From Planctomycetota bacterium (GTDB lineage: Bacteria > Planctomycetota > Planctomycetia > Gemmatales > Gemmataceae), in NCBI GenBank assembly GCA_016191165.1, contig JACPPF010000095.1, positions 1 to 51,260 on the forward strand: DNA of 51,260 nt, written 5' to 3'. Of the stretch, positions 33,218 through 39,190 are shown piece after piece. A program made the translations under genes and the position numbers. A model generated the notes under the pieces. It saw only the letters and a program-made list of their open reading frames with translations, was not told where the DNA came from and searched no databases. Positions within the stretch are counted from its first letter, which is position 1. Each line of letters opens with the position of its first letter.

Positions 33218-36200
33218 TCAGCGTGGCTGGCCGTAGATCGGGTCGCGTGGGTCGTCGCTGACGTGCCAGCTTCGGCCGTCCGGGCGCATGTACATTCTGC
33301 GTTGTTCTTGGGCGTTCAAGGCCCGTGCGCCGACGCGGCCGAAGACGGCGATCGGGTTGCCGCTCTCATCCACCGCCCGATCGCGATCGAGCGCCCTACC
33401 GACCGACAGCGCGTGCCCGCCGTGTGGGATCGGGTAGGTGGCGATCAGCCGCGGCGTCGGGCGCGGGCTGAAACCCTGGTTGCCCGGCGTCTCCGGCGAC
33501 GTCAATTGCACAACGCGCACGCCGTTCTTGCCGTCCGCGAGATAAGCAAACTCGCTTACATAGGTAATACCTAGCTTCACGTCGTGCAAATCGTTGATGT
33601 GCCCGTTGGCCTTGTAAACCTGATCGACGTGGAATTTCTCCGGATTCTCGATATTGAGGATGACCAGCCCGTGTTTCCCACCCGCGACGTAGGCGTAGGT
33701 CCGCGCGAGGTAAATGTTGTGCGCTTCTTCCATGCGCAAGATCGCCTTCGGGACGGGCTTCGCCAGGTTGGTCACGTCGAGTGAGGTGATCCCCTCTTCC
33801 CCGCATACGAAAGCATAGCGGAACTGCACCTGCACTGCCTTCGCCTTCTTGATCGGCACGAGGGCGGTCAGCACGGGTTTCGTCGGATCGTCGAGCGACA
33901 CCACCGCCAGACCGGCGTTACAGCAGATGTAAGCGTAGTTGCCCGCGATGGTGAGGCCGCACGCGCCGGTGAGGGCGCCGTTGGGATTAAACGTCACGTC
34001 GCGCTTGAGGAAATTGTCGATCGGGTTGCCGTTGATCGTCGTGCCGGCGCCGACCAGGATCAGGCCTTCGTGCTTGTCGGCGACGTAGATGTAGCCAAAG
34101 AGCGGGTGGACCTTTGGTTCCTTGTTTTCAGGATGCTGCTTGCGCGTCGGGTCCGGCGCTGGCGTACACGGGGCGGCGACGGCGGCGGCGTAGCGCGTCT
34201 TGACGTGGAACTTCTGCCCGACCGGCGAAACCGGCGCCGTCGTTATTCGCTCCGAGAATGACTTGTTGTCGATAAACGCAATGTCGAAGACGCGCAGACC
34301 GTCCTCGCCACAAGCCGCATAGAGGTACTCGCCGCGCGGCTGCACCTGGAGGATGTTGGCCTTCTTGAATGGACGCTTGAGCCGATCGGCGATGTCGAGG
34401 CCGGGGTGCTCGTGAGCGACTTTCAACTTGAAGTGGTTGTGCTGATGCTTGCGGAAGTAATCGGGGAACGCCAGCTTGTGAAGCGTGCTGCCGATGACCG
34501 CCTGCGGCTCCTCTTGCTCGGTGACCACGACGCCATGCAGGCCATGATCCTTGGCGGCGACCCAGGCGTAACGGCCCATGAAGTTGACATAGCCCGTACC
34601 CTGCATGAGGAGCTGGGCCATGATGGCATTGTTGTCGTTCTTCTTGGACAGATGGCAATCCGTGCAGCTCTTGGTATCCGCGCGGCCCGATTCGTAGGCG
34701 GCGGCGTGCGCGGCGCGGCCGTTGTGGCCGCTGCCTTTCTGGAACGGGACCAGCGGCCCACCGCCGCGAACGGTGTGGGGCACGTTGGTGCTGAAGGCAA
34801 TGCCGCTCAGGCCGTCGCCGGAGATAGTCTGTTGTTGCACGTAGACCGTATCGCGGTTGTTGTTCGACGAGCCAACGTGGACCGCGCAGGACGAACGCGC
34901 CGGCCCGATCTTGTTGCCCGTAACGTCGCCGTCGCGCGCGAGCATGAACACGTCGTCGCGCAAGGTCTGGAAGTTGTAGGAGATGTAATTGCGGGTTGGC
35001 TCCCCCTCAAAATGCAACGTCGGCATCTTCTTGTTGGCCCGCTGGGGCAAATGGCAGCCAAAGCAACTCGGGTTCCACGACGAATGGCAGGCGATGCAGC
35101 TCATGTTTTGATTGCAATGCGCCACCTTGCCATCCGGCGGCACGTCACCCCATTCCATCTGGCCGGTCTTGTTGAAACGCACAGTCTTCGCCAGCCGGGC
35201 CTTCTCGTTGTAACGCGGATGATCGGGGTCGATGACGTCCTTGGTCTGCACGACCTCCCAAAAAAGGTTGGGTTCGACCATCGAGTTCTGGATCAGCCTC
35301 TTGCCCTGGCGTTCGAAGCGACGTTTGCCAAATGGGGTGCGCAGCGTGGTCAGGTCGTGGCCCGTCTTGGTTTTATCCCAGCGGTTCGCGACGCTCACCC
35401 CTGGGCTTGCCGGGCCGCTCGTGCGTAGCGTTGCGTGCTGGCTGATCGTACCGTGACAATCGATGCACTGGATTTCGATCGCGGCGCGCACCTCGCCGTA
35501 GAGTTTCGTGTTGCCGTGGTTGTCTTGGGTGAAATGGCAATCGACGCAGTGCATGCCTTTTTCGAGGTGGATGTCCATGAGGTGAACCGGGACGCCGTCG
35601 CGATTGGGTCCAGTGAGCGGAGATCCGTGAGGACCCGGGTTGGATGTGTTGCCCGGGTGCCTACGCGCTTCGGCGCGTCGATGATTTTGCAACAACTCAG
35701 GCATTTCGATGGCCCGCATCAGGTCCCTGGTTGTCACGTCCTTGAGCGCGGCGCCGCGATGATCGAGATACCGCCCGGCGCGATCCTTCTTGTACACGGC
35801 GCGGAACACCCAGCCGTGGCCATTGAAGTCGGCGAATTGTGTGTGCTTCAAATGTGGATTGAGGCTGCGGACATTTCGCAAGAATTGCGGGTTCGACCAG
35901 TTGCCGCGCGCGGAGGCCTCGTCGGGGTTGTTCATGGCGGCTTTGGCATAGTCCTCGGCAGTCGGGTATTTCTGCCGCTGCGGGTACATGTGCTCGCCAT
36001 CGGTTTCTTCGTCCCACCACATGTAGCCGAGGTAGCTGTTCAGAACGTTGGTTCCGGGATGAACGTGACAGGTGATGCACTGGCTGGTGGGGATGGCGCG
36101 CGTGAACTTGTGCTGGATCGGATGGCCCGATTCGTTCTTCGGGATGGTCGGATCAAGGCTCGCGGAGAAGCCCTGGTTGCCGAACTTGGCGTAGGGGCCG

Positions 36201-37237: not shown

Positions 37238-39190
37238 TCAAAACGTCAACACCGCCTCAACAAATCCCGCGAGCAAGGGCCGCGCGGGATGATCGAAGGT
37301 GTCGAATAATTCCTTGAAACCCTGGCCCGGCAACAGCGTCGAGAGGCCGGCGCGAAAAATCATGTTGTTGTTGAGGTATGGCCGATACTCCAGGCCCGTG
37401 CTCAGGTCCACGCCGATGAAGCGATTCATGTTTTGCTGATAGGTGAACTGTTGCAAAGGATTGAGCGAATCAAACCATAGCAAATTCGCGTTGTTGATAA
37501 AGCGTAAGCGCGGCGTGGCCTCCACGTCGAAACCGAGGTTGCCCAGGTAAAGGCCGGGATTGACGAAGTTGCTCTGCCCCTGGAATTTGCTGGAGCGCAG
37601 ATCGGGGACGAGGCTCATGCGCTGATTGAGATTGACGCCGAACAGGCGAAGCTGCTGCCGCTGCCAGTAGGTAAAATCACCGCCTGCGAAGTTGGGATTG
37701 TCAAGGATCGTATCAAAGCCGGTCGCATGCCGATTGGAAATGTTGCGGTCGCCCGACGCCCAGAAAAACGACGTGCGCAGGCGCAGCCAGTCGAAGTCCA
37801 CGCTGAGCTCCAGGGCCGCCATCTGGGCGTTGATCGTCTGGGGCTGATTGGCGAGCGGATTGCGCGAATCGTGGCCCAGGGCCCAGTAGAATGCGTGATT
37901 CACGTTGAGGCGGCTGACGTGTCCATCCCCGGCCCAGCCGAGGTAGACCACATCGATCCGGTGCGGTTGAAACACGCCCACCGGATCGGGCCGGACCAGG
38001 AAGCCGTTGTTGTCGAATTTGAACGTCGGCGCATCGTGGTTGTAGTGCATAGACCACTGCGCGGTGTAGCCGGGGAAAATGAAGTCTTGTCGATAGTAAT
38101 TCGCGATGACGATTTGCTGGCTGCGATTGCGAAACGTGTTGAGGAAGCTGTTCGTGTCTTTTTCCAGTTGCGCGAAGTAGACGACATTGAACTGATCGCG
38201 GTTGCTGAGCCGATTACCGAAAAGACGCACGCCGCGGTTGATGTCGCTGAAGATGAACCCGCGAAAATCGCTGGTGAAGGGCTGCGCGCCGGCGCGGACT
38301 GAGACGAAGTCGTAGTCCGGCCCCAGATCGGCCAGCTTGACCTCGGCAAACCACTCCTGTAGGGCCGCAAACGTTCGGCCGCGCGTTGTCCCTTGCGTCA
38401 CATCGGGACTGACCACGGCCAGTTCGTTCACCGCGAGGTAGTTCACGTTGAATGCGGGGGTCAGCTTGACGCGCCAGTCCACGGGGCGAAAGGCAGCGTC
38501 GCCGTGGAACAGGTCGAACGATAGGAAGAAATTCTGTGCGTAGAAGAACTGGTTCGGACTGCCGAAGAAATCCTTCGAGTTGGGCCGGGCCGTGCTCTCG
38601 AACGGCGTGGTGCCGGTCGGAACCTGGCGTGGCTCGAAGAACGCCTGCGTCGTGCCGGTGATGTCCAGAAATAGGTTCTGGCCATAGATTGGGTAGTCGG
38701 CCTTGAACACGTTCTGATTGAACGGATCCCACCATCGGCCCGGCACGTAGGGATAATCGTCCACCGGCGGATGCCCCTTGCCGTAGCGATCCCACGCGGG
38801 GAATCCGGTGCGCCAGCGGTCTTCCATCGGAACGAAATGGTTGCTCTCCTGGCCATCGCGCGGCAATACGCGCGAACGCCCCGCGAAGCCAAGCGGAGCG
38901 TCGCTGGGCGTTTGGTGAAGCGGCGACTCCGGGGGGAGCTCCCAACTTGGTTCGGGCAACAGCGACGGCTGGGCGGTCGGCGTGGACTCGCCGTTGTGCG
39001 GTTCGAGGGTGACGATACCGACCGCCCCCGTCGGGGACGGGACGCTGTCATCTGAAGACACGGCCCGAGCGATGGCGTTGGTCGCTTGCGGCGGAATCGT
39101 GGCGCAACCCGGAAGCATCGGCGCTGCCATGAGCAGGCAGACCCCCAGATTCACCAAAATCCTGATGTTGCCCGTTACCCGGGAACTCAT
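37238..39190 (-). CDS. Outer-membrane beta-barrel lipoprotein
   Basis: 650 residues from ATG 39190 (an upstream TTG adds 14 polar residues). A lipoprotein signal peptide ends LPGC (C29). After a low-complexity linker the rest is a repetitive beta-barrel pattern rich in aromatic and alternating residues (FFLSFDLFHGDAAFRPVDWR, VKLTPAFNVNYLAVNEL, DFVSVRAGAQPF, VVYFAQLEKD, LRLRTSFFWASGDRN, LYLGNLGFDVEATPRLRF), ending in Phe (EAVLTF), as outer-membrane proteins do. The cytochrome gene downstream suggests a porin-cytochrome unit, but the barrel has no recognised MtrB-like signature. Function is inferred from context. Confidence 0.78.
   Translation of the reverse strand: MSSRVTGNIRILVNLGVCLLMAAPMLPGCATIPPQATNAIARAVSSDDSVPSPTGAVGIVTLEPHNGESTPTAQPSLLPEPSWELPPESPLHQTPSDAPLGFAGRSRVLPRDGQESNHFVPMEDRWRTGFPAWDRYGKGHPPVDDYPYVPGRWWDPFNQNVFKADYPIYGQNLFLDITGTTQAFFEPRQVPTGTTPFESTARPNSKDFFGSPNQFFYAQNFFLSFDLFHGDAAFRPVDWRVKLTPAFNVNYLAVNELAVVSPDVTQGTTRGRTFAALQEWFAEVKLADLGPDYDFVSVRAGAQPFTSDFRGFIFSDINRGVRLFGNRLSNRDQFNVVYFAQLEKDTNSFLNTFRNRSQQIVIANYYRQDFIFPGYTAQWSMHYNHDAPTFKFDNNGFLVRPDPVGVFQPHRIDVVYLGWAGDGHVSRLNVNHAFYWALGHDSRNPLANQPQTINAQMAALELSVDFDWLRLRTSFFWASGDRNISNRHATGFDTILDNPNFAGGDFTYWQRQQLRLFGVNLNQRMSLVPDLRSSKFQGQSNFVNPGLYLGNLGFDVEATPRLRFINNANLLWFDSLNPLQQFTYQQNMNRFIGVDLSTGLEYRPYLNNNMIFRAGLSTLLPGQGFKELFDTFDHPARPLLAGFVEAVLTF

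Follow-up and report, generated by a model that had tools for sequence, protein, structure and literature searches.

The window analysed here is a stretch of 51,260 nucleotides from a bacterium of the Gemmataceae (Planctomycetota; assembly GCA_016191165.1, contig JACPPF010000095.1). On its minus strand it carries a gene for an outer-membrane beta-barrel protein, followed by a gene for a decaheme c-type cytochrome with a C-terminal LVIVD propeller. The two genes are a conserved unit. We hold with moderate confidence that the two proteins form the outer-membrane end of a conserved chain of several proteins that carries electrons across the cell envelope. The features of the locus are listed below.

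33218 to 37159, minus strand: decaheme c-type cytochrome with C-terminal LVIVD propeller, 1313 residues, N-terminal export signal, ten invariant CxxCH motifs, Pfam match to Cytochrom_c3_2 at 9e-7
34640 to 36994, minus strand: heme-bearing region of the cytochrome, residues about 56-840, ten hemes (wide alignment, n = 28)
33440 to 34582, minus strand: beta-propeller region of the cytochrome, residues about 860-1240 (LVIVD matches, repeat motifs, Foldseek matches to propellers)
37238 to 39190, minus strand: outer-membrane beta-barrel protein, 650 residues, signal sequence closed by the lipobox LPGC in this genus, modelled as an 18-stranded AlgE-like barrel
37241 to 38674, minus strand: 18-strand barrel domain, residues 173-650 (strand list of the model, structure matches)
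38675 to 38899, minus strand: conserved segment preceding the first strand, residues 98-172 of the barrel protein (alignment)
37160 to 37237, minus strand: intergenic spacer with a hairpin of 23-bp stem (GCCGCTTGCGGC family; RNA fold -52.6 kcal/mol, z -8.2)

Co-inheritance and gene order of the pair

Both open reading frames of the preliminary description were present on the minus strand, with the barrel gene upstream, the cytochrome gene downstream and 78 nt between the barrel stop and the cytochrome start. Coordinate 33218, the first one given in the preliminary description, lies where the cytochrome gene ends with its stop codon. Occurrence was counted in 248 genomes of the window's class, the cytochrome being counted at length, and in genomes of other classes of the phylum. 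Within the class, the cytochrome was found in 86 genomes, the barrel in 84 (84/248) and both in 82 (Fisher p = 6e-58, a descriptive value, as the genomes are related). The two genes were adjacent in 42 class genomes from five families, always on the same strand and with the barrel first. In the other classes, the barrel was present in 29 of 30 cytochrome-bearing genomes and lay directly upstream by coordinates in 26. Among the named relatives of the cytochrome, which include Gemmata, Singulisphaera, Limnoglobus, Rubripirellula, Roseiconus and Tautonia, the barrel was immediately upstream in 42 of the 62 with enough upstream sequence. In many genomes of the window's own family, the two genes are on separate contigs or megabases away from each other, yet both are present; the link is thus independent of neighbourhood. 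Both genes are missing from two genomes of the window's genus, which indicates that the loss is joint. The co-occurrence and the gene order across classes reject chance neighbours. The preliminary description would have been refuted by a barrel gene that is not conserved beside the cytochrome in relatives; this condition was checked, and the outcome did not refute it.

The pair is also well conserved in sequence. Percent identity to the window's proteins was compared in 25 genomes, with glycerol kinase as the single benchmark. The median identity was 66% for the cytochrome, 61% for the barrel and 54% for glycerol kinase. The cytochrome exceeded glycerol kinase in 25/25 genomes, and the barrel did so in 21/25. 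Such high conservation points to a partner or substrate that is specific and conserved, and away from a promiscuous mineral reductase.

When plasmid sequences were searched by tblastn, Sphingobium and Sphingopyxis plasmids were found to carry the full-length cytochrome (about 43% identity, 96% of the query) and the barrel (about 40%, 78%) side by side. The pair had earlier been taken as a possible planctomycete-specific redox module, and these adjacent, full-length copies led to the rejection of that idea. In Sphingobium herbicidovorans pMSHV, the order is a c554-type cytochrome, an HbpS-like protein, the barrel and the decaheme-propeller cytochrome, on one strand and overlapping or nearly touching. 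A few kb further on, the opposite strand encodes a c3 cytochrome with an FHA domain, a cytochrome b and a Pyr_redox/cNMP/Fer4 protein. The four-gene block recurs in Sphingopyxis indica. The sphingomonad plasmids NZ_CP020539.1 and NZ_CP076395.1, which carry the unit, were typed as conjugative, and this typing suggests horizontal transfer of the unit. On both plasmids the barrel is annotated merely as a hypothetical protein.

Features of the cytochrome and the barrel protein

The ten CxxCH motifs reported earlier are at residues 60, 80, 142, 304, 361, 538, 565, 688, 699 and 832. Each of the ten heme sites is invariant in 28-29 class relatives and in a wide alignment of 28 sequences, which spans several classes and includes two Alphaproteobacteria; the motifs are therefore not chance occurrences. 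The third site (residue 142) is spaced CxxxxCH in many relatives. The wide alignment also shows eleven conserved histidines that are not part of the motifs (71, 97, 346, 350, 367, 526, 531, 548, 681, 716 and 795). Their number is sufficient for second ligands to ten hemes, which fits an electron carrier and is also compatible with a catalytic heme.

The C-terminal LVIVD-like propeller of the preliminary description was recovered by Pfam (PF08309, 1.1e-16), with 60.4 bits against a gathering score of 20.2. Repeat motifs were located at residues 1023, 1075, 1115, 1155 and 1204, and further blades are likely near 863 and 943, the blade number being an estimate. In an AlphaFold2 model of residues 44-1243, the predicted local distance difference test score (pLDDT) was mostly above 85 from about 1060 to 1243, and the Foldseek list was filled by unrelated propellers. 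Outside the propeller the model was poor, with pLDDT 56 for the heme region, so no heme-domain fold is claimed. No credible sequence relative of known structure was found in the PDB for the cytochrome or the barrel, and no paper naming both a multiheme cytochrome and LVIVD was found; two papers that name a cytochrome and LVIVD contain a single mention of LVIVD each. The best-scoring NCBIfam model for the cytochrome was ExtM of the Geobacter selenite/tellurite cluster (1e-18). Assignment as ExtM was rejected, because the match reached 67 bits against the cut-off of 800 of NF040943.

The AlphaFold2 model of the barrel has 18 strands, with a mean pLDDT of 70 and strands mostly above 80. Its best structural match is AlgE (Z 27.7, root-mean-square deviation 2.9 A over 359 residues), followed by OprD-type (Occ) porins (best Occ Z 25.2), and chitoporin was also among the matches. 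As modelled, the barrel shares the 18-stranded fold of the alginate exporter AlgE and the OprD porins, but the identity to them is 12-13%, and it carries a long conserved N-terminal extension. The family profile search proposed earlier gave no MtrB match, and no family was matched in Pfam (E up to 1, the AlgE family included), NCBIfam or PHROGs. An MtrB chain was missing among the 50 best structure matches listed, which is not evidence of absence.

Before the first strand, the strongly conserved residues 98-172 (pLDDT mostly under 50) follow the consensus LGF.G.S...EDRW..G.P.WDRY...DPYNQNVLKGDYPI.GQ, and the invariant columns in the family alignment are G101, G104, D124, W126, R127, D134, R135, Q159, N160, K163, D165, P167 and G170. 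The segment is a candidate contact surface, perhaps for the cytochrome, or a candidate plug. The signal sequence ends in the lipobox LPGC in this protein and in that of L079, a relative of the same genus, and most other homologues lack it. The earlier term "barrel lipoprotein" is therefore of local scope, and it was rejected as a trait of the family.

A wider gene set and a putative trans-envelope chain

The pair is co-inherited with further proteins. A two-domain HbpS-like protein (PF03928) was found in 86 class genomes, in 79 of them together with both the barrel and the cytochrome. In Planctomycetes its gene is divergent from the barrel gene, lying within 10 kb in 62 genomes and always on the opposite strand. 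This protein seems to be secreted in Planctomycetes, by our own reading of a leader (...LEDRTAPA) in the copy on contig C23 of the window's genome. A c554-like tetra- or pentaheme cytochrome was present in 85 class genomes, 84 of which also have the decaheme-propeller cytochrome. A cytochrome b was present in 106, including 84 of the 86 with the decaheme-propeller cytochrome. All five tested components (cytochrome, barrel, HbpS-like protein, c554-like cytochrome and cytochrome b) occurred in 78/248 genomes and none of them in 139/248. The gene set spans about 16 kb in Sphingobium and is largely clustered in several other planctomycete loci.

In the window's own genome, these parts lie at other loci. 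The HbpS-like gene is on C23, a 5-heme and 4-heme cytochrome pair is on C178, and a further 4-heme cytochrome is on C111. A locus on contig C38 (L199, 476-5307) holds a compact cluster of a cNMP-binding/4Fe-4S protein (cNMP-Fer4), a membrane-anchored decaheme and a di-heme cytochrome b. Clusters of this type elsewhere include versions with FHA or Pyr_redox domains.

Several observations concern the surroundings of the HbpS-like gene. On C23, a gene for a BBP7-family beta-barrel porin (PF07585; locus L202, 7932-9197) lies directly upstream of it. A small protein family (about 157 residues, YVGYYVGGG-like motif, no Pfam match) adjoins it in 14 loci, including L044 (17133-17789). In one relative (L044, 13817-17047), a matrixin-like (M10) metalloprotease domain is part of the HbpS-like protein.

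The gene set, its co-inheritance and gene order, the heme sites and the cytochrome b motif were observed directly, and the barrel fold comes as a predicted model. From these we infer that the parts may form one chain, ordered by the cofactor type and expected location of each protein. The source of electrons would be the quinone pool or a cytoplasmic cNMP-binding/4Fe-4S protein, which in Sphingobium is fused to a pyridine-nucleotide oxidoreductase domain. They would pass to the inner-membrane di-heme cytochrome b, then to the membrane-anchored decaheme and on to periplasmic tetra- or pentaheme c554-like cytochromes. From there they would reach the decaheme-propeller protein, which would dock on the 18-stranded barrel and be held by it at the outer membrane. 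The partner outside would be an extracellular acceptor or donor. It may be the HbpS-like protein, because this protein is apparently secreted in Planctomycetes. Outward flow is favoured because of the pyridine-nucleotide oxidoreductase domain of the Sphingobium input protein; reverse flow would be possible. The pair had been described earlier as a possible extracellular electron-transfer unit, and that proposal is partly supported, by a conserved pair within a gene set composed like a trans-envelope chain.

By composition, the gene set closely matches PCC4, a putative porin-cytochrome cluster (He et al. 2017, PMC5566968). There, PCC4 has a porin, cytochromes with 4, 5 and 10 hemes and an Fe-S protein; the inner-membrane protein of PCC3 and PCC4 has ~300 residues with two WX3HX13H motifs and SGxxG; and PCC4 Subgroup II is reported to include Planctomycetes. 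PCC genes were also noted in Planctomycetota genomes (PMC10732223). Similarly, the gene set here has an outer-membrane porin gene (by the AlgE-like model), a 5-heme and 4-heme pair on C178 and a 10-heme cytochrome on C38, the decaheme-propeller cytochrome being additional. The cytochrome b of the window's genome has two WX3HX13H motifs (WLKGHIWLGLLSFVLVLCH and WLYLHVPLSAAMLVMMIAH) and TGIAG, with T replacing S, and that of Sphingobium has SGVFG. As in Subgroup II, a cNMP-Fer4 protein is in the same C38 cluster, and it is directly adjacent to cytochrome b in Sphingobium. In contrast, a propeller-fused decaheme and an HbpS-like partner are not mentioned for PCC4 in the sections of that description consulted, and the parts are dispersed in the window's genome. 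The likeness is one of composition, and the gene set is described as PCC4-like and not filed as a PCC4 member. Features that appear to be new are a decaheme fused to a propeller and paired with an 18-stranded barrel of its own, the HbpS-like partner, co-inheritance throughout the phylum and copies on plasmids.

Several points weigh against an outer-membrane electron-transfer role. The 18-stranded AlgE/OprD-like barrel has the fold of a solute channel, which is no known cytochrome sheath. The 10 hemes are spread along some 780 residues, whereas MtrA forms a compact wire. In the window's genome, the parts of the chain are scattered over five contigs. The carriers in culture (Gemmata, Singulisphaera, Rubripirellula and Sphingobium) are generally known as aerobic heterotrophs and not as metal respirers. 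Finally, the slow evolution of the pair is the opposite of what is reported for the metal-respiring, extracellular electron-transfer cytochromes of Geobacter and Shewanella, which evolve unusually fast, with mutation rates above the rest of the proteome (PMC12977616).

More tentatively, the trans-envelope chain could be a hitherto undescribed, slowly evolving electron system, present mainly in aerobic bacteria, that runs on NAD(P)H or quinol and does not serve metal respiration. Its outer-membrane end would consist of the 18-stranded AlgE-like barrel, the decaheme-propeller fusion and a secreted HbpS-like partner, and the system would have been transferred between Planctomycetes and sphingomonads. 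If true, the architecture of this outer-membrane end would be new. Planctomycetes, an abundant group, are difficult to study, and a role has been assigned to few of their large cytochromes; the pair is present in about a third of the sampled class genomes and in further classes, with the same partners. A defined gene set in culturable hosts (Gemmata, Rubripirellula and Sphingobium herbicidovorans) opens the question of whether aerobic heterotrophs send electrons across the outer membrane, and why.

Alternative readings and further observations

The main rival is a periplasmic redox enzyme with a dedicated substrate porin. The barrel would be a selective channel for the import or export of a small anionic substrate, and the decaheme-propeller protein would be a periplasmic oxidoreductase fed by the same cytochrome chain, so that electrons stay in the cell. 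The fold of the barrel is that of substrate channels (AlgE, OprD/Occ and chitoporin), the strong conservation of the pair suits an enzyme, and every PCC4 cytochrome was predicted to be periplasmic by He et al. 2017 (PMC5566968). The top NCBIfam model also points this way, as ExtI, the porin of the ExtM cluster, was proposed as a selenite channel (PMC5877670). Like the Geobacter extHIJKLMNOPQS cluster (selenite/tellurite), the present set has a porin gene, several multiheme cytochromes, a b-type cytochrome and local similarity to ExtM. However, the cytochrome is no ExtM: its score is far under the cut-off, and ExtM is a 12-heme, 68-kDa protein of about half its length. The conserved neighbours of the pair included no recognisable rhodanese or selenocysteine cytochrome. 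The eleven histidines, conserved across phyla, are enough to bis-ligate all ten hemes, which leaves no obvious open catalytic heme, and the HbpS-like partner has a planctomycete-type secretion leader by our reading. A periplasmic enzyme is regarded as rather unlikely.

A conduit of the MtrCAB type, in which a portion of the decaheme domain would run through the barrel in the way that MtrA runs through MtrB, is considered very improbable. The barrel and decaheme genes are adjacent and their co-occurrence is near-obligate, and in MtrCAB and OmbB-OmaB-OmcB the barrel and the multiheme cytochromes are likewise encoded together. A small heme plug within a small barrel is possible, as in Cyc2. However, no family match to these conduits was found, and the modelled barrel has 18 strands versus the larger MtrB (28 predicted motifs, PMC5877670), a size which, as modelled, argues against an MtrA-like plug. 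A single large decaheme-propeller protein replaces the separate periplasmic and surface cytochromes. Its heme region is extended, the ten hemes being loosely spread along residues 60-836 of 1313, and a large propeller is attached, whereas MtrA is a compact decaheme of about 300 residues. A novel porin beside a multiheme cytochrome was also described in Verrucomicrobia, a sister phylum, but those porins have at least 20 predicted strands and octaheme partners (PMC5615132).

The least probable reading is heme or iron acquisition. Extracellular heme or iron would be bound by the HbpS-like protein, let in through the barrel and reduced by the cytochrome chain. In favour are the close association of the two-domain HbpS-like protein, present in 86 genomes, with the pair and the resemblance of the cytochrome b to the membrane domains of ferric reductase or cytochrome b561. 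Against it, ten-heme proteins would be costly as an iron-uptake device, and the clustering of the loci, with annotation of neighbours inside the clusters, yielded no further gene family as a conserved neighbour, for instance a TonB-dependent receptor or an iron transporter.

The promoter and terminator scan gave no signal exceeding chance, and no Rfam or tRNA match was found in the window. The GCCGCTTGCGGC hairpin between the two genes is probably a member of a dispersed palindromic repeat family rather than a feature specific to the barrel-cytochrome pair, because its arm motif is over-represented in the window (9 matches versus 1.4 expected). Inverted pairs of GCCGCTTGCGGC arms with equal spacing are present at 37182-37237, between the barrel and cytochrome genes, and at 23276-23331.

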